Shown: positions 3,687-11,654 of the stretch, piece by piece
Layout of the letters: each line of letters begins with the position of its first letter
How positions within the stretch are numbered: the stretch's first letter is position 1
Origin: an uncultured Desulfuromonadales bacterium
GTDB lineage: Bacteria > Desulfobacterota > Desulfuromonadia > Geobacterales > Pseudopelobacteraceae
Assembly: GCA_903868145.1 (NCBI GenBank)
Contig: CAIPTY010000051.1
Span: forward strand, 104,008-168,007
DNA: 64,000 bases
Direction: 5' to 3'
Made by a program: the position numbers and the translations under genes
The notes under the pieces: model-generated
Seen by the model: only the letters and a program-made list of their open reading frames with translations
Databases searched by the model: none
Told to the model about the DNA's origin: nothing

Positions 3687-3774
3687 AAACCGCCCCACAA
3701 AAAAACCAGCCACTTACCTCGACCAATAAAAAAGGCACCTACAATTCAACGTAAGTGCCTGTTTTTATTATGGC

Positions 3775-3787
3775 GAAGGTGAGATTC
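3775..3787. repeat. Distal att-like direct repeat (copy of tRNA-Ser 3' segment)
   Basis: GAAGGTGAGATTC identical to 11574-11586; preceded by TGGC as at the tRNA end, but lacking 3 nt relative to it. Confidence 0.75.
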
Positions 3788-3979
3788 TAACAGAGCTGTT
3801 AAACATTTAATATTATTATGTTTAATAATTTGTCAAGTTACTCAACACCCCCAAAAGCGCCCCTAAATGATAATCATAAAAATAAAAAGGGTTTTAGGAT
3901 ATGGCCTCGATTATAGACGGGCTTAAGGGGGAGCCAGGCCGATCAATCCCCGTTTTTTTTTGGGGGGGGTGGTCTGGCC

Positions 3980-4537
3980 TCATGCTGTCTTGGCTTCCTT
4001 CGCGATCCTGTAGACGCTTGCAACTCCGATGTTCAAGGTATCAGCAACCGCCTGTTTGGTCAAGCCCTGCTGTATCAGTTCCATAACCTTCCCGGCTTGT
4101 GCTTTGGCTGTCGCTTTTCGGCCTGTGTACTTCCCGGCCTTCTTTGCGATCTCGACACCTTCCTTTTGACGTTCAAGCATCATCTCTCTTTCAAACTGAC
4201 CGATTGCCGCAAGCATGGAGAGCATGAGCTTGCCTGTAGGTGTTGACGTGTTCAGGTTGATATTCAAGACCTTGAAGGCAACACCCTTCTTTTCCAGGCT
4301 GTCAACGATGGTCAACAGGTGCGCCGTACTCCGTGCGATCCTGTCCAGCTTACAGACAGTCACAGTGTCACCTTCCCGGCAATAGTCAAGCATGGCTGCA
4401 AGTTCGGGACGGTCAACCTTAACGCCGCTTGCCGTTTCCTGATATATCTTGTCACAGGCTGCCGACTTCAACTGTTCCAATTGTGATTCAAGATTCTGGC
4501 CTGAAGTGCTTACCCTTGCATATCCGATTGTCGCCAT
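3980..4537 (-). CDS. Serine recombinase (resolvase/invertase family)
   Basis: MATIGYARVSTSGQNLESQLEQLK...CKLDRIARSTAHLL...LNTSTPTGKLMLSMLAAIGQFEREMMLERQKEG...GRKA; canonical small serine recombinase with C-terminal HTH. Confidence 0.92.
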   Translation of the reverse strand: MATIGYARVSTSGQNLESQLEQLKSAACDKIYQETASGVKVDRPELAAMLDYCREGDTVTVCKLDRIARSTAHLLTIVDSLEKKGVAFKVLNINLNTSTPTGKLMLSMLAAIGQFEREMMLERQKEGVEIAKKAGKYTGRKATAKAQAGKVMELIQQGLTKQAVADTLNIGVASVYRIAKEAKTA

Positions 4538-4553
4538 AATTACCCCCTTTTGC

Positions 4554-4707
4554 CTATCAATAGATTTTAAGATAAGCTGATAATAAACTATCAAAACACA
4601 AAAATCAATCCTTTTGATAGATTATTTTGATAGTTTGAAAATCTATCATACAGGCATGGTCTATTGATATGATGTTTTTGATTGCTGGCTTTGAAGTTTG
4701 ACTATCA
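4554..4707. promoter_or_regulatory. Candidate res/resolvase binding region upstream of the serine recombinase
   Basis: Six copies of CTATCA/TGATAG in both orientations at 4554, 4588, 4615, 4628, 4643, 4702, immediately upstream of the resolvase start. Confidence 0.55.
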
Positions 4708-4914
4708 GAATAAAAGCAGGTGGCTTTTTGGTAGAAAAATCATTCCGTCAATTCCGCTTAATCCGGTTCGAGATTTTGACTTTTACACAAAAACAGCGAC
4801 AAGACACAGCACAGGCATAGCGTGAACTATTGCAATCATTGAGGCCACGGCGCTTTTTTTGAGTATTGAAAAAAGGTAACTAAATACTTTTTTTACACGG
4901 TCTTTCGATAAACG

Positions 4915-4942
4915 AAAAGGGGGGAGCGCAATCTCTCCCCCT
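4915..4942 (-). terminator. Probable terminator at the end of the element's minus-strand operon
   Basis: Minus strand GGGGGAG-agattgcg-CTCCCCC followed by TTTTCG. Confidence 0.5.
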
Positions 4943-5019
4943 GATTATCTGCCGGATTCATCCCCAGGCTTCCAAAATTCGTTTCTAACGGGCTTTCTCG
5001 ATACCGTCAATGGCACAGG

Positions 5020-5181
5020 CTATGCCACTTTGTTTTTCAGCTCGTTTTCCCCCTTCAGCTCTTTGATTTTGTCCTGATCCCGTTCAAGACGTTCCTGAAG
5101 CATCGCAATCATTTTTTCAATACCGTCAACCCTGCCGGTTAAGAAAATGATCTTTGCGGCAATTTGGCTTTTGTTGTTCAT
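5020..5181 (-). CDS. 53-aa coiled-coil-like small protein (not in ORF track)
   Basis: MNNKSQIAAKIIFLTGRVDGIEKMIAMLQERLERDQDKIKELKGENELKNKVA*; GGAAAGG-like RBS. Confidence 0.5.
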   Translation of the reverse strand: MNNKSQIAAKIIFLTGRVDGIEKMIAMLQERLERDQDKIKELKGENELKNKVA

Positions 5182-5284
5182 GTGCAATCATCCTTTCCCC
5201 CAAAGTGAACTGCCGGAGGTTGATTGTGTTCTTATCTGTGCTTCAAAATTTTCTGCAAGTTTGGTCATAACTTGCTTTGCAAGG

Positions 5285-5557
5285 TTATCTGCATAGCCTA
5301 AGCAGCATGGCCTGCTCTTCACGGATTTGATCCTTTGCAAAACGTGTTGCAATAGCACTAAGCCGCGCCCGTGGTATCAGTTCGTAATAGCGCCCGTCAA
5401 CTTGGATTTCCAGCACGGGCACCTTGCCTTTGCAATTTTTGGATTTCTGGACATTCTGCAAGCTTTGAATAATTTTATCAGGCACAGCCAGGGAAACCCT
5501 TTCAGCGTAGAAATAGTCACTGTCACGGGCAAACACTGGTGATTTGTATTTACTCAT
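5285..5557 (-). CDS. Hypothetical protein (90 aa)
   Basis: Overlaps the upstream CDS by 8 nt, consistent with translational coupling; coding-like composition. Confidence 0.6.
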   Translation of the reverse strand: MSKYKSPVFARDSDYFYAERVSLAVPDKIIQSLQNVQKSKNCKGKVPVLEIQVDGRYYELIPRARLSAIATRFAKDQIREEQAMLLRLCR

Positions 5558-5906
5558 CGTTTTTCCCTTCCATCAGCCACAGAATTTCAGCCATTGTCCT
5601 TTGTGCTACAGCCGGGTCAAACTGCACTTGAATTTTGAGAGTAGCCCCCAGGTAGTAGATGAAATCACGGACAAGGATAGACTTGCTCAATGCCCCCAGT
5701 TTTTCATTCTTCAGGTTTTTGTACTGTGGATAGCCAGTACGGACACGGTTGATGGTTTCCTCGGCTTTTTCTTCCTCGGCCTGCAAACGTTGCTCTTCAA
5801 GAATTTCTGCCTGTAGCTTTTCAATCCTCTTTGCCCTGCCTGACTTTCCAGCCGGTTCAACTTGGCTGCCAACCGATAAAACGAATGGATCAACGTTTCT
5901 CATCAT
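5550..5906 (-). CDS. Hypothetical protein with charged coiled-coil region (118 aa)
   Basis: EKLQAEILEEQRLQAEEEKAEETINRV; RBS-like GGAG upstream; coupled to 5285..5557. Confidence 0.6.
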   Translation of the reverse strand: MMRNVDPFVLSVGSQVEPAGKSGRAKRIEKLQAEILEEQRLQAEEEKAEETINRVRTGYPQYKNLKNEKLGALSKSILVRDFIYYLGATLKIQVQFDPAVAQRTMAEILWLMEGKNDE

Positions 5907-6122
5907 CTGATTTTCTCCTTTTGATTGTTAGGTGTGCCCCCTAAACTCAGGATTCGTCATCTCGCAAGGGGTCTTTTCATCCTTGAATGCGTCGCACAAA
6001 CACACAGGAATCTTGCCGCCGATATAGCCCCCCGCTGAAAATTCCCTTGAAAAGAGCTGATTTTCAAGGCTCCCCAGGGCAAGGGGCAAATTGTTTGTGC
6101 GCCCCAGGGAGTTGCAACATTT

Positions 6123-6416
6123 TTAAGGAATCAATGGATTTTCTTTTGCTCCCTTCTCCAGTGCCGGAATCAAAGGTTCATCTTCCGGCAATAGCGGATT
6201 CTTGCCGCTGTCACTGACAGCCCGCTGCAGTTCAAGGGTTTTCTGCGTCTTTCCCTCTTCCGGCAATATCCCGGTGAAACTGTCTTTTCTGAAAACTTTC
6301 ATGCTGTTGTTCCTTTCTTGTGGTTTGGTGTTTGCCCGTTCATCAATACCCCGCTTCAATCTGCCGAAGCGTGAAGCATCACGGACTTTGAACTTAAAAA
6401 CAAAGTTGCCTGCCAT
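6123..6416 (-). CDS. Hypothetical protein (97 aa)
   Basis: ORF between DnaB-like helicase and downstream small genes, same strand. Confidence 0.5.
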   Translation of the reverse strand: MAGNFVFKFKVRDASRFGRLKRGIDERANTKPQERNNSMKVFRKDSFTGILPEEGKTQKTLELQRAVSDSGKNPLLPEDEPLIPALEKGAKENPLIP

Positions 6417-6437
6417 TCTTTCCCCCTGACAGAATCC

Positions 6438-7739
6438 TTAAAATGGTAAGTCCGGTTCGCCTTTGCCGGCCTTGCGTTCATACGGTTTGCACTCCCCAAA
6501 CCGCAGGCAAGAGCGGTCAAGTGCAATCTCGAAAATGTTACCCGCAGGCCCGTTGCGGTTTTTCAGAATTTTCAGCAAAAGCCGCCGATCTTCTGACTGC
6601 CAAAGCCCCAGCATGAAATCCGCCGCCGCTTCAATATCTCCCGATCCCTTTGCTGCATCGGCTTCCATTTCCCGCTTATTGCCGGGAGCGTATGCCCTCG
6701 AAGTCTGGGAAAGCAGGACAACAGGAACATTCAGGGACTTGGCAAGATTCTTTGTCTCAATGGCGGTGTGCTGTATCCGTTCGTATGGATCTCTGCCAAC
6801 AGCCGCCACAAGCCCCAGGTAATCAATTCCTATGCCGCCGATCTCCCCGTATTTAAGCCGTGCCTGTTCCACAAAAGCGCCGATCTTTTCTAGGGAAAGC
6901 CGGGAGCGGTCAACTACAATCAATTTTTTTGCCGCTTCATGTTCAACGAGCGCCCGCCCGTCACGGTAAGCCCGCTCTACCTGCCTGCCGGTCAAGCCGG
7001 TTGTCTGCATGGTTTCTCGTTCAAACAGTTTTGCCGCTGACATTTCCAAACTGAAAAAGATGTAGTACAGCCCCGTTTCCATTGCGTTCTGTAGCAGCAT
7101 CCAGTACAGGAGCGCCGTCTTGAAGGTGCCGCTATAAGCTGCCAGGGTAATAACCTCCCCAGGCGCACAGCCGCGCAGGTGTTCGTCAACAGGGGGAAAT
7201 TTTGTAAGGAAACGCAGGCGGTCAATGTCTTTGATGTAATCGGAATAACGCCGCTGTCGTTCCTGCCAGGTAAGCAGCTCCCCGGCCTTTGTGTTCATCA
7301 CTTCCCCGGCTAGGCCAACAGCCGCCGCCCTCAACTCATCGCAGGTATCGGCAAGCGGTTTTTCCATATCCCAGAAACCGCCGACAATTTTTCTAAAATG
7401 CATGATCCCCGGTTGTCGCCGCAGGTATGCATCACGGACACGACCAATGTAATAATTTGCGTTTGCAGCCGTTGGCACGTAGTCAACCAATTCAGCCAGG
7501 TACGCCGCCCCGCCACACTGGTCAAGCTCTCCCCGGTTCTTCAACAAGCCGGAAACTGAAACAAGGTCAATCGGTTCTTTGCGGTGTGCCAGGTCTTTCA
7601 TAGCGGCATCAATCAGCCGGTGCGCCTCTTTGTAGAAAGCCTCTGGGGGAAGGTCGCACGTTTTGATAACGGCATCGTCAATAAACCTCGCCCCCAGCAC
7701 AGCCTTTTCAGCATCATTGTCATCAGGAAGGGGTTTCAT
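6438..7739 (-). CDS. DnaB-like replicative helicase of the element
   Basis: DAEKAVLGARFIDD N-terminal DnaB domain; Walker A-like AAYSGTFKTALLYW; YYIFFSLEMSAAKLFERE; GIGIDYLGLV; LLSQTSR; start taken at MKPLPDDND. Confidence 0.85.
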   Translation of the reverse strand: MKPLPDDNDAEKAVLGARFIDDAVIKTCDLPPEAFYKEAHRLIDAAMKDLAHRKEPIDLVSVSGLLKNRGELDQCGGAAYLAELVDYVPTAANANYYIGRVRDAYLRRQPGIMHFRKIVGGFWDMEKPLADTCDELRAAAVGLAGEVMNTKAGELLTWQERQRRYSDYIKDIDRLRFLTKFPPVDEHLRGCAPGEVITLAAYSGTFKTALLYWMLLQNAMETGLYYIFFSLEMSAAKLFERETMQTTGLTGRQVERAYRDGRALVEHEAAKKLIVVDRSRLSLEKIGAFVEQARLKYGEIGGIGIDYLGLVAAVGRDPYERIQHTAIETKNLAKSLNVPVVLLSQTSRAYAPGNKREMEADAAKGSGDIEAAADFMLGLWQSEDRRLLLKILKNRNGPAGNIFEIALDRSCLRFGECKPYERKAGKGEPDLPF

Positions 7740-8592
7740 CAGCCTGTTCCTTCCAAGGTGTCCAATCTTCCAACATGATCCCTTCAGGCGGTAATAAGCC
7801 GCGTTGCCGGAAATCATCAAGTTTCCCGTTTATGTGTGCGGGGTAATCATTCAACTTCGCAGACAACATCCCCAGGGAAGGACGTTTGCTTTTCGGAAAA
7901 TTAATGTCTGTGAACATGCCGCAAGCCTTTGCAACAAGCTCCTTGACGGGCACACGGGAAAGAAGCGCCTTCAGAATATTCCCGTCTTTTGCCCCTTCAA
8001 CCCGGTAACGATCCCCCTGACTTTCTCTGAAGGCATAGCAAAACCAATTCAGGAAAAGCTGCCGTTCCACCGCCTTTAAGGGGTCAACTGATTTCTTGGC
8101 TGTCGGTTTCCGTGGTTTTTTTACGGAAACTGGCAGAGATTCTTTAGAATCTCTTTCTTCTATTCCGTCTCCTATTCCTATTCCTATTCCTATTCCGTAT
8201 AGGCGGTCATCTGACAACACGTGTTGACATGAGTTGTCATGTGTCAGCAGACTTGCCCCGGTGGTATCCATGCCAGGGTAACGCGGTGCCTTTGCCCGTA
8301 GGCGGTTATGACGTTCCCAATTTGCAATCTGAAAATAGCGCCGCCCCTCGACTTCGTAGAGGTTCAACAGTTTTTCTGCCTGTAATTCCCGCAGTCTGAC
8401 TTCAATGATTTCTGCCGTTATTTCAGGCCGCAAAGGGAAACAGCGCCCTTTGATTATTTCCGGTTTTGCGAGTGCCCGCCCAAAATCATCAGTTGCCGTC
8501 AACAAAAACATCCAAAAAGCGACTGTCTCCATTGGTAGCAGGTTCAAATTTTCAGACGTGCAAATACTCTCTTTCAAGATTCGGTTCGGCAT
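7723..8592 (-). CDS. Putative replication initiator/helicase-loader-like protein (phage replication protein O/DnaD-like)
   Basis: MPNRILKESICTSENLNLLPMETVAFWMFLLTATDDFGRALAKPEIIKGRCFP wHTH-like N-terminus; overlaps dnaB-like gene. Confidence 0.6.
   Translation of the reverse strand: MPNRILKESICTSENLNLLPMETVAFWMFLLTATDDFGRALAKPEIIKGRCFPLRPEITAEIIEVRLRELQAEKLLNLYEVEGRRYFQIANWERHNRLRAKAPRYPGMDTTGASLLTHDNSCQHVLSDDRLYGIGIGIGIGDGIEERDSKESLPVSVKKPRKPTAKKSVDPLKAVERQLFLNWFCYAFRESQGDRYRVEGAKDGNILKALLSRVPVKELVAKACGMFTDINFPKSKRPSLGMLSAKLNDYPAHINGKLDDFRQRGLLPPEGIMLEDWTPWKEQADETPS
8171..8194. repeat. Hexanucleotide tandem repeat (CCTATT)4
   Basis: CCTATTCCTATTCCTATTCCTATT, encodes GIGIGIGIG in the replication protein. 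Confidence 0.95.
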
Positions 8593-8810
8593 GGTGCCCC
8601 CGCCTGTATAGCACCCGCTTCACTTAAGCGGATTTCGGATTCATGCAGTTCCGTTGCGATCTGTCGCAGCAGGTAATACAGCCCGTTTTGCCCTGAAGTA
8701 GAAAACTCGAAATCATCACAGGCCATTGCCTCAGCAATAAAATCAATTTTCTGGTGAGCATGGCTTATTACGTCAAGGGGGTGCGGTTTGTAATTGGTAT
8801 CGTTACTCAT
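8574..8810 (-). CDS. Hypothetical protein (DUF3077-like size and position; family not assigned)
   Basis: MSNDTNYKPHPLDVISHAHQKIDFIAEAMACDDFEFSTSGQNGLYYLLRQIATELHESE; ATGA overlap with upstream CDS. Confidence 0.55.
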   Translation of the reverse strand: MSNDTNYKPHPLDVISHAHQKIDFIAEAMACDDFEFSTSGQNGLYYLLRQIATELHESEIRLSEAGAIQAGAPCRTES

Positions 8811-9112
8811 TGTCTCCCCCTCCACGGTTCCGCGTTTTCGATGATTTCCATAATGTCACGGTAACGCCAGCATACAGTTCTACCCAGGCGCACGGGAGCC
8901 GGATAAATACCCGCTCGCACTCTTTCCCAGAAAACAGTTTTTCCAATCGGCAAGAGCGCCGGAATACCCATCTTCTTGTTGCCGATGATCTGCCACAGCC
9001 GCAGCAAAGCATCACCGTTGCACTTGCGGTTAAGGCGTTCAAGGGTGTCCAGGTATTCGTCATCAGGGGGAGCGGGTTTGCTGTCTGGTTTGTCTGTGTT
9101 GTCTGTAATCAT
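8807..9112 (-). CDS. AlpA-family excisionase/transcriptional activator-like protein
   Basis: GIPALLPIGKTVFWERVRAGIYPAPVRLGRTVCWRYRDIMEIIE AlpA signature; AGGAGG RBS upstream. Confidence 0.8.
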   Translation of the reverse strand: MITDNTDKPDSKPAPPDDEYLDTLERLNRKCNGDALLRLWQIIGNKKMGIPALLPIGKTVFWERVRAGIYPAPVRLGRTVCWRYRDIMEIIENAEPWRGRQ

Positions 9113-9221
9113 GTCAATTGCCTCCTTTGAATGACACAATACGGACGGGAGCGGAAAAAGTGATTAACGAAATCGCGCAACATCTCGAAGGTGAAAAAAA
9201 GTTTGTAGGGAGGTGAAAAAA

Positions 9222-9884
9222 TTAAACGTTAAGGAAGGTATGACAGCAGGTGAAGGGGTGAACAGATGCTTTGCAGACAGGGCACACGGGCTTTTCGTCC
9301 CGTATCTGTGCCGTGTAGGAATCGGTTGAAAGGTCGGATGAAACCCGGTAGTTCAAGGCGGGGACTTCTTCAACGGTAAGGCCGGGAATCAGGAATTTAG
9401 GCTTGCAGCAGGTGCCGCAAAGAATTTTTTGCAGGTCATTCTTTACCCTGTTCCAATGTTTCACGTTGCCGGTCTGGTTGAAACTTGCCAGGCGATAGCG
9501 TGAGTACCAATCGGCAACGACACTTTTCAGGGCAAGAACATTGCGGTGAGAATACGAATCAGAACTGAATAGGCTTCTGATAACAGGGAAATCCGGCTCT
9601 TTCAGCAGCTTGTCCAGGGTGCGCCGACTTATCCAAAGATATTCAGCTATCTTTTCGCCGCTCCACAGCATTTCAGAATAAAGGTGGCAAATATCATCCT
9701 TACTCATGGCTGATTGAATTTGTCGGGGTTTTAAAGGGTTTCGTACCTTGTGAATGGGGAGGGGAAAGCGTTTTTTCAGGTCAAGCAGGAGCTTCACGGG
9801 TTCTTTTTGCAGGTCAAACAGCCCCAGGGATTCAGCAATAGCCTCATTTGTGTATGTCAGCCGGTTGTCAATGTGCCGGATCAT
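9222..9884 (-). CDS. Hypothetical protein with C-terminal Cys-rich zinc-ribbon-like region
   Basis: HTH-like AEYLWISRRTLDKLLKEPDFPV; CGTCCKPK and CPVCKASVHPFTCCH. Confidence 0.55.
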   Translation of the reverse strand: MIRHIDNRLTYTNEAIAESLGLFDLQKEPVKLLLDLKKRFPLPIHKVRNPLKPRQIQSAMSKDDICHLYSEMLWSGEKIAEYLWISRRTLDKLLKEPDFPVIRSLFSSDSYSHRNVLALKSVVADWYSRYRLASFNQTGNVKHWNRVKNDLQKILCGTCCKPKFLIPGLTVEEVPALNYRVSSDLSTDSYTAQIRDEKPVCPVCKASVHPFTCCHTFLNV

Positions 9885-9885
9885 A

Positions 9886-10155
9886 TCATTTCCCGTGTAA
9901 GATTCGTCGTATCTGCCGGATTTTCAGCCCGTGGCGTTCGGCAAGCTCTACATGGTTGAATCCAGAAAATTCCCTAATGATTCGAGCATTGCGCTTGTTC
10001 CTGTCCAGGTCTTTCATGCTGGGAAACGTCAATCGCATTCCGCCGATAGTTTCAGCCATTGCCTGAATGATCTTTTCTGAAAGCGGTTTCCCAAAATCAG
10101 CCCGCAACCGGTTTAAAAGTGTCTCAATTGCCGCCGCATTTTCTTGCCGATTCAT
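9886..10155 (-). CDS. Mor-family-like transcriptional activator
   Basis: IIREFSGFNHVELAERHGLKIRQIRRILHGK resembles Mor C-terminal HTH. Confidence 0.65.
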   Translation of the reverse strand: MNRQENAAAIETLLNRLRADFGKPLSEKIIQAMAETIGGMRLTFPSMKDLDRNKRNARIIREFSGFNHVELAERHGLKIRQIRRILHGK

Positions 10156-11387
10156 GCCGCCGCCTTCTTGAACGGAATGACTTTAGCCCCTGCCTTCAAG
10201 CCGTCCAGATAATCAGCCCAGGTCTGCATCATCTTCTTGCGTTCGATAAGGTGCGACGTCCGGTTGTATGCCCTGCCGTTCGGGTCTCTGACTGCATGTG
10301 CAAGCTGGTGTTCAATGAAATCAGGCCGGAATTGCAGCACTTCGTCAAGAATCGTTCGCGCCATTGCCCGGAATCCGTGGCCGGTCATGGTCTCCTTGTC
10401 AAATCCCATGTACCGGAGCGCCGCGTTTATGGTGTTGTCACTCATAGGCCGGGCACTGGTTCGACCGGGAAACAGATATTTTCCAGCGCCGGTAAGCGCC
10501 TGCAAGGATTTCAGGATTTCAACCGCCTGCCGTGAAAGTGGTACAAGGTGCGGTTCCTTCATCTTCATCCGATCTGCCGAAATGTTCCATTGTGCTTCTT
10601 CAAGGTCAAACTCTGACCATTCGGCCTTCTGTAGCTCCCCAGGACGGACAAAAACAAGCGGTGCAAGCCGCAAGGCGCACTTGACGGCAAAAGAGCCTTG
10701 ATATTCATCTATCGCACGGAGAAGGGGGGGGAGTTCTTTCGGGTCTGTAATGGCGGCATGGTGCTTGACTTGTCGCTTTTCAAGGCAGTCACGCGGGCGT
10801 ATGGGTGCGGAAACATCGGTGTCAATAAGTCCGGTAACAACGGCATAGCGGAAAACCTGCCCGAAAATGATCTTGATTCGTAGAGCGGTGTCAAGCGCCC
10901 CCCGCGCCTCGACTTTCCGCAGGATTGCCAAAACCTCCCCGGTCTTGATCTTGGAAATGGCAACGGATCCGATCACGGGGAAAACATCACGTTCCAGGCG
11001 ACTTATTACGGTGTCAGCGTGCCCTTTTGACCATGCCGCAAGCTGTTTGCCGTACCATTCCCGCGCAACCGTCTCAAAGGTAATTTCTTGCCGCGCCCGT
11101 TCCGCTGCCTCTTCCTTCTTTGCCGCTGCCGGATCAATACCGTTCGCAAGCAGCTTGCGGGCATCAAGCCGCCGCTGTCTGGCATCAGCCAAGCTGATTT
11201 CAGGATAAGCCCCCAGGTAAAGCGTTTTCTCCCTGCCGTCAAAGCGGTATTTGAAGCGCCACAGCTTGCCGCCTGTAGGAGTGACAAGCAGAAACAACCC
11301 GCCGCCGTCAAAAAGCTTCACGTCTTTTGTCTGGGGTTTCGCTTTGTGTACCTGTAAATCAGTAAGCGGTAGAATCCTTTTCGGCAT
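10152..11387 (-). CDS. P4-type tyrosine recombinase/integrase
   Basis: MPKRILPLTDLQVHKAKPQTKDVKLFDGGGLFLLVTPTGGKLWRFKYRFDGREKTLYLGAYPEISLADAR (DUF4102 N-terminus); MTGHGFRAMARTIL; RAYNRTSHLIERKKMMQTWADYL. Confidence 0.93.
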   Translation of the reverse strand: MPKRILPLTDLQVHKAKPQTKDVKLFDGGGLFLLVTPTGGKLWRFKYRFDGREKTLYLGAYPEISLADARQRRLDARKLLANGIDPAAAKKEEAAERARQEITFETVAREWYGKQLAAWSKGHADTVISRLERDVFPVIGSVAISKIKTGEVLAILRKVEARGALDTALRIKIIFGQVFRYAVVTGLIDTDVSAPIRPRDCLEKRQVKHHAAITDPKELPPLLRAIDEYQGSFAVKCALRLAPLVFVRPGELQKAEWSEFDLEEAQWNISADRMKMKEPHLVPLSRQAVEILKSLQALTGAGKYLFPGRTSARPMSDNTINAALRYMGFDKETMTGHGFRAMARTILDEVLQFRPDFIEHQLAHAVRDPNGRAYNRTSHLIERKKMMQTWADYLDGLKAGAKVIPFKKAAA

Positions 11388-11397
11388 GGGGTTTTCC

Positions 11398-11458
11398 TCC
11401 TTTTGGGGGTGCCTCATTTTTTGGTTTTGGGGGTGCCCTTGATATACACCCCCAAAAC
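11398..11458. promoter_or_regulatory. Candidate integrase arm-type binding sites and int operator
   Basis: TTTTGGGGGTG at 11401-11411 and 11425-11435, inverted copy CACCCCCAAAA at 11447-11457. Confidence 0.55.
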
Positions 11459-11504
11459 AACCGATTTCAAACGTATCAGAACGGACGGCAACGGACAAGC
11501 AAAA

Positions 11505-11542
11505 AGAAAAAGCCCCTGATTTCTCAAGGGCTTTTTTGCTTA
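11505..11542. terminator. Bidirectional terminator-like hairpin downstream of tRNA-Ser
   Basis: AAAAGCCC...GGGCTTTTTT stem with T tracts on both strands. Confidence 0.6.
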
Positions 11543-11566
11543 ACCGGACTGTGCCGGATTATGTTT

Positions 11567-11654
11567 TGGCGGAGAAGGTGAGATTCGAACTCACGGAGGT
11601 GTTACCCTCGGCGGTTTTCAAGACCGCTGCCTTAAACCACTCGGCCACCTCTCC
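11567..11654 (-). tRNA. tRNA-Ser (anticodon TGA), encoded CCA
   Basis: GGAGAGGTGGCCGAGTGGTTTAAGGCAGCGGTCTTGAAAACCGCCGAGGGTAACACCTCCGTGAGTTCGAATCTCACCTTCTCCGCCA; long variable arm. Confidence 0.95.
11574..11586. repeat. tRNA-proximal att-like direct repeat
   Basis: GAAGGTGAGATTC within tRNA-Ser 3' end. Confidence 0.75.

Follow-up and report, generated by a model that had tools for sequence, protein, structure and literature searches.

A candidate phage satellite integrated at tRNA-Ser in an uncultured Desulfuromonadales bacterium

A compact element of about 7.8 kb lies at a tRNA-Ser gene in a 64,000-nucleotide stretch of DNA (the window; GCA_903868145.1, contig CAIPTY010000051.1, positions 104,008 to 168,007) from an uncultured Desulfuromonadales bacterium. 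The element is probably a phage satellite of Geobacter-type bacteria, of a type previously unreported in the open literature searched, because it has three links to one phage family: a DNA site, a Mor-family activator and the C-terminal tail of a protease/scaffold protein. Phage satellites hijack the virions of a helper phage through dedicated mechanisms or DNA signals (PMC11389934). Good descriptions of them exist for enterobacteria, staphylococci and vibrios, and no satellite report for Geobacter-type bacteria was found in the open-licence literature.

Integration at tRNA-Ser

The element is a true integrated unit that extends from about 3775 to 11590. ARAGORN found a single tRNA in the window, and this tRNA-Ser(TGA) (minus strand, 11567-11654) is the integration target. 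A 17-bp direct repeat with one mismatch (GAAGGTGAGATTCkAAC) is present at 3775-3791, where it constitutes the left attachment (att) copy GAAGGTGAGATTCTAAC, and at 11574-11590 within the 3' part of the tRNA, which is the right att copy. In the congener G002 (L196) a short terminator hairpin, AAAAAGGCACC..AAGTGCCT.TTTTTATTATGGCG, is found directly after tRNA-Ser. In the window the same native terminator is located at about 3727-3771, at the element's left boundary and next to the left att copy. Because the terminator abuts the tRNA in G002 but is displaced by 7.8 kb here, the empty site is visible and the insertion is real. An earlier note, made from the letters of this DNA, had proposed a tRNA-Ser integrative element, and the att repeat and the empty-site comparison bear this out.

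The synteny of serS, tRNA-Ser and a PGA_cap gene is kept in relatives. Its relatives place the host in the Geobacteraceae/Desulfuromonadales. A single copy of the element is present in its own genome assembly, a draft with 97% completeness. Additional sequences resembling P4-type integrases, at 65-79% DNA identity, are present on contigs C18, C40, C83, C86 and C95 of the same genome, which suggests other tRNA islands.

All genes of the element are on the minus strand, in the order integrase, Mor, Cys-rich helix-turn-helix (HTH) protein, AlpA-like protein, s83, Rep, DnaB, s97, s118, s90, s55 and resolvase. The open reading frames (ORFs) are intact and compactly arranged, with ribosome-binding sites.

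Links to a phage family

The candidate helper is a prophage and phage family of Desulfuromonadia with a Mu-like head. In this family a large primase and the site are followed in order by an XerC-like recombinase, Mor, the putative TerS and TerL, portal, protease and a capsid protein of the Phage_cap_E type. The protease/scaffold protein belongs to phrog_16951 and has a weak match to the Mu-like I-protein (PF10123) over residues 200-321. Mor and protease were found together in five prophage-bearing genomes when 277 genomes were compared class-wide. The prophage integrase is probably a different gene from the XerC-like one, because G203 has another integrase, apparently at the host boundary of the prophage. 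The helper prophage appears to have two tyrosine recombinases, a boundary integrase and an internal XerC-like protein beside the site (L254, 5047-6093, and L244, 6354-7325).

The first link is the DNA site at 3883-3916 on the minus strand, with a C-tract, the core CTATAATCGAGGCCATATCCTAAAACCCTTTTTA and then G-tracts. These 34 bp match phage L169 just upstream of xerC (blastn, E 0.003). Similar sites, flanked by a C-tract and two G-tracts, have the same position in L141, L163, L168, L244, L245, L246 and L247, so that a conserved site of about 35 bp is located just upstream of xerC, near iteron-like repeats, in every phage checked. With a position weight matrix that omitted L169, the site in the element ranked first among 127,934 window positions; the training set included two sites misplaced by the automatic pick, a source of noise. 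A matrix based on corrected sites gave the element a score of 35.4, compared with 24.7-43.5 for true sites and 17.1 for the highest-scoring non-site across all loci. A degenerate pattern matched 13 of 2.9 million viral contigs in IMG/VR, eight of them with primase, XerC or Mor genes of the helper family; because the pattern had been designed to cover the element as well, the scan is a test of the specificity of the site and not of the element's match. The site in L266 differs from that of the element at about 3 of 36 positions.

The site might function as a packaging signal (cos or pac). The frame of C-tract and G-tracts hints at a cut site, as does contig L268, which ends exactly at the G-run of the site, though assemblies may also break at poly-G. 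Alternatively, the site could serve recombination by the XerC-like protein of the helper, or be an origin or a regulatory site. This is a substantial alternative to which we give somewhat more than one chance in three, and the element would still be a satellite in that case. The constant position upstream of xerC and the nearby iteron-like repeats agree with such a role. On the other hand, the element retains the site although it lacks an XerC gene, and the separate boundary integrase that appears in the G203 prophage implies that the site is internal and not an att site. The hints at a cut site also point away from recombination, with the same reservation about poly-G.

The second link is the Mor-family late transcription activator at 9886-10155 on the minus strand (PF08765, 3e-13), which is 44-51% identical to the closer Mor proteins of the helper family and overlaps the integrase gene by ATGA. 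The phage mor genes adjoin xerC just before the late genes. A palindromic block of 43 bp precedes both the terminase-like and the protease genes in L141 (positions 1505 and 6210), L161 (14647 and 19495) and L169, and one of the two genes in L163, L165 and L179. This block is likely the Mor target and a candidate Mor-dependent late promoter of the phage family. A weaker copy, above window background, is found 80 bp before alpA in L112 (G037:C381), a compact element of 7.1 kb.

The third link is the small ORF s97 at 6123-6416 on the minus strand, which encodes 97 amino acids, or 59 if translation starts at ATG 6302. Its C-terminal part contains NPLLP..EPLIP..NPLIP and ends in ...NPLLPEDEPLIPALEKGAKENPLIP, and the protein is a candidate mimic of the scaffold tail. 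The full-length protease/scaffold protein of the helper family ends in NPLIP or NPLVP in L121/L161, L141, L143/L170, L144, L178 and L180, and in the variants NPLIV, NPLVV, NPLTP or NPLNP in L179, L181, L142 and L145. An NPL-type end is absent in the L169 and L182 proteins. None of 200,000 shuffles of the 59-amino acid form yielded three such motifs, and s97 is the only ORF with NPLIP before the stop in its own genome. Among 141 genomes of the order, NPLIP and NPLIPK before a stop are about as frequent as chance would predict. The convincing ORFs with these ends are s97 and p263 of L112, and the other matches are mostly out of frame or very short. The small genes at 5.0-6.4 kb had been pointed out earlier as candidates for hijacking functions, and this now seems apt for the ORF at 6123-6416.

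The proposed mechanism starts with induction of, or infection by, a phage of the helper family, upon which the integrase and AlpA would excise the element. Rep and DnaB would then copy the excised DNA, and the resolvase would resolve multimers. Mor would act on the late promoters of the helper, as Delta does in P4. The packaging machinery of the helper, or XerC, would act on 3883-3916 and bring satellite DNA into helper particles. The s97 protein might dock on the helper procapsid by its NPLIP tail, where it would either compete with the scaffold, resulting in small capsids, or ride in together with it. We see about an even chance that the element represents a new satellite family of Desulfuromonadia that hijacks these Mu-like-head phages through three levers together (its copy of Mor, a minimal decoy reproducing just the C-terminal tail of the protease/scaffold, and the cos-like site of the helper), with an independent origin of scaffold mimicry of the SaPI CpmB type.

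Weighing the satellite reading

Several observations weigh against a satellite. The roles in excision, replication, packaging, transactivation and capsid assembly are all read from sequence. No helper-family prophage was found in the element's own genome, and L112 is without the DNA site, though that contig is possibly incomplete. The putative 43-bp late promoter was sought in the element and nothing above background was found; if Mor acts on this block it would act on the helper in trans, and otherwise the Mor of the element would have other targets. The NPLIP motif is short and was spotted post hoc, which weakens the shuffle and genome statistics. No full-length homologue of s97 was found, and the homology of s118 is weak. 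In the helper family, TerS and TerL were named mainly by position and their family matches are weak (phrog_9 only 0.08).

If the element were the degenerate remnant of a prophage from this phage family, with Mor and the site kept but the virion genes lost, this would explain why these two features are common to the element and the phages. We consider such an origin improbable. The integrase, Rep and DnaB of the element differ from the large primase and XerC-like recombinase of the phages, and the intact ORFs, their compact order and their ribosome-binding sites do not suggest decay. Moreover, a congener has an element with the same backbone whose cargo differs and includes a small terminase subunit, and s90, s55 and the resolvase recur in L112.

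The earlier note had left the choice between a phage satellite and an integrative plasmid. An integrative plasmid or other helper-independent element, which excises, replicates by Rep and DnaB, resolves its multimers and uses Mor to regulate its own genes, fits the replication genes, the resolvase with its possible res site and the ATGA overlap between Mor and int, an arrangement also seen for iolg in the phage-inducible chromosomal minimalist islands (PICMIs), but we hold it to be just as doubtful as a remnant, since the helper-phage site and the NPLIP tail have no role in such a model, no relaxase family was found in profile scans and the small proteins of the element matched no plasmid record. 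The shared site, Mor and the tail thus favour the satellite side of that choice. A resolvase with res had been named as a plasmid trait, but that it marks a plasmid lifestyle here was not shown; related resolvases are present in the compact elements L112 and L013.

The satellite reading names a candidate helper family, and the pairing of satellite and helper can be tested in lysogens, for example relatives of G037 or G068. Should the NPLIP tail prove to be a signal for capsid docking, scaffold-tail mimicry would have a second, unrelated example, and the tail would offer a way to study how the procapsids of these phages assemble.

Other genes of the element

The P4-type tyrosine integrase is encoded at 10152-11387 on the minus strand (PF13356, PF22022 and PF00589) and is 60-65% identical to relatives starting MPKRI. 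The real starts of the integrase and resolvase genes are probably at 11387 and 4537 rather than at the starts of the longest ORFs. The serine resolvase of 185 amino acids (3980-4537, minus strand; PF00239, 3e-45) is 59% identical to that of L112 and 41% to that of L013. Upstream of it, an inverted repeat AATAAACTATCAAAA/TTTTGATAGATTATT at 4582-4626 is a putative res site or operator.

The Cys-rich HTH protein (9222-9884, minus strand) has a weak match to phrog_4996 (6e-4), and its AlphaFold model has a predicted local distance difference test (pLDDT) score of 37 and is unusable. The predicted AlpA-like regulator or excisionase (8807-9112, minus strand) has no Pfam match itself and was assigned because of its homologues: it is 45-48% identical to proteins in relatives that match PF05930, and the 45%-identical homologue L117 reaches this family at 4.9e-5, above the curated cut-off. 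The small ORF s83 (8574-8810, minus strand) has no notable family match.

The replication initiator Rep is encoded at 7723-8592 on the minus strand (phrog_1408, 1e-12). GGAATA hexamer repeats and palindromes (TGACAACACGTGTTGTCA) in the middle of the rep gene, at 8180-8290, may be a replication origin. The DnaB-like replicative helicase (6438-7739, minus strand; PF03796, 8e-28 and PF00772, 5e-25) is 44% and 42% identical to the helicases of L013 and L015, and scans of genome and viral collections with DnaB returned mainly host DnaB.

The remaining small ORFs are also on the minus strand. The 118-amino acid product of s118 (5550-5906) weakly resembles the products of ORFs in L112 and L248, with shuffle z values of 5.5 and 4.4, and has no match by BLASTP. 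Two ORFs are common to the element and L112: s90 (5285-5557; 90 amino acids, 47% over 75 amino acids, E 2e-20) and s55 (5020-5187; 55 amino acids, 45% over 44 amino acids, E 4e-9). A scan of viral contigs with s90 gave no hits, and the small proteins of the element had no match in related phage records.

The gene content predicted earlier is present, with the integrase, Mor, Rep, DnaB and resolvase confirmed by profile matches and the AlpA-like protein by way of L117. The prediction that virion and conjugation genes are lacking holds as well: Pfam and phrog profile scans of the element proteins found no terminase, portal, capsid, tail or other virion family and no relaxase family. No defence family was found in the element.

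Relatives and other elements

The nearest backbone relative, L013/L018, is located at tRNA-Leu in the same genus (G001:C95, JAENWA010000095.1). Its L013 proteins are 60% (integrase), 44% (DnaB), 41% (resolvase) and 29% (Rep) identical to those of the element. Both elements are at a tRNA and carry integrase, resolvase, Rep and DnaB. L013 (129-13282) differs in its size of 14 kb and in having RadC, a protein of 1725 amino acids without phage or Pfam match and, directly before Rep, a Terminase_2 small subunit (PF03592, 1.9e-16), while no Mor, NPLIP protein or site was found in it. Iteron-like TGGAACG repeats are present in its rep gene. The Rep-DnaB pair is also found in a Trichlorobacter metagenome-assembled genome (L015/L019), where L015 (G072:C304) has the pair adjoining type I restriction-modification genes. 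Because these relatives have the backbone with differing cargo, the backbone appears to be a mobile family in which the hijacking cargo is exchangeable. The earlier note would have counted it against its reading if relatives had this gene block as fixed chromosomal genes away from tRNAs. That was not seen; the relatives are patchy, and the nearest is the one at tRNA-Leu.

In addition to the genes shared with the element, L112 carries AlpA-like, DUF3987 (helicase) and CHC2 primase genes, and its XerC-like recombinase is related to those of the helper phages. Its p263 protein of 263 amino acids is a truncated prohead-protease homologue, with an identity of 24.5% to the 'major head and protease protein' of a phage and of at most 54% to a protein encoded on viral contig L140, and with NPLIP twice near the N-terminus and once at the C-terminus. 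The G037 genome holds both L112 and a terminase-like gene of the helper family.

In L248 (G161:C25, 2208-6783) a tRNA-Arg is found with a Mor gene (51%) 140 bp away and three tandem copies of the site. L248 also encodes a connector-like protein, a weak homologue of s118 and a 107-amino acid protein that contains both NPLLP and NPLIV; its 93-amino acid ORF has no significant similarity to s90. L248 could be either a satellite or the remnant of a prophage, and this is ambiguous because the contig is short and ends early.

Comparison with known systems

The element agrees with phage satellites in general in that it combines an integrase with replication and regulation genes, does not have a complete virion set and has a DNA signal in common with the helper phage, for which a packaging role is presumed. 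No relaxase, the mark of integrative mobilizable elements, was found in a scan that covered relaxase families only. Capsid-forming phage-inducible chromosomal islands (cfPICIs) have their own capsid and packaging set, and no capsid, portal or terminase family was found in the profile scans of the element.

PICMIs of Vibrio are defined by int, alpA and a DUF3987/DUF5906 primase next to fis (PMC10803314). The element resembles them in its minimal size, its alpA and an int with an ATGA-overlapping next gene, which in PICMIs is the excision-essential iolg (PMC10803314). It has no DUF3987/DUF5906 primase, is located at tRNA-Ser instead of fis, and differs in helper family.

The genes listed for Gram-negative phage-inducible chromosomal islands (PICIs) include AlpA near int, and Pri-Rep (PMC6092414). 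Like EcCICFT073, the element has int, an AlpA-like protein and a replication module, and some PICIs use the cos site of the helper instead of TerS. Others carry TerS, as L013 does. The order int-Mor-Cys-AlpA places the AlpA-like protein, recognised by its chain of homologues, near int. The element differs in having Rep and DnaB and not Pri-Rep, and in its Mor, resolvase and NPLIP protein.

P4-like satellites are defined by Psu, Delta (PF04606), Sid, epsilon and alpha (PMC8628076), and a Pfam scan found none of the families that Pfam covers in this set. By its predicted content, the element falls outside the defining sets of P4-like satellites, cfPICIs and PICMIs and is without the Pri-Rep of Gram-negative PICIs. 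Its closest functional parallels are nevertheless with P4 and SaPI1. P4-like satellites of P2 have the same integrase family, an AlpA-like protein, their own replication genes and a late activator homologous to that of the helper (Delta/Ogr, as Mor here), although their activator belongs to another, unrelated family and their helper has no relation to that of the element. Delta of P4 and Ogr of P2 are a precedent for the Mor model (PMC8628076). CpmB of SaPI1, itself a PICI, and the scaffold of 80alpha have a common C-terminal motif (RIIK) that binds the capsid protein (PMC5644958). The sequences are unrelated to s97, and neither an Stl-type repressor nor TerS was identified in the element, but in both systems a small protein shares its C-terminal motif with the scaffold of the helper.

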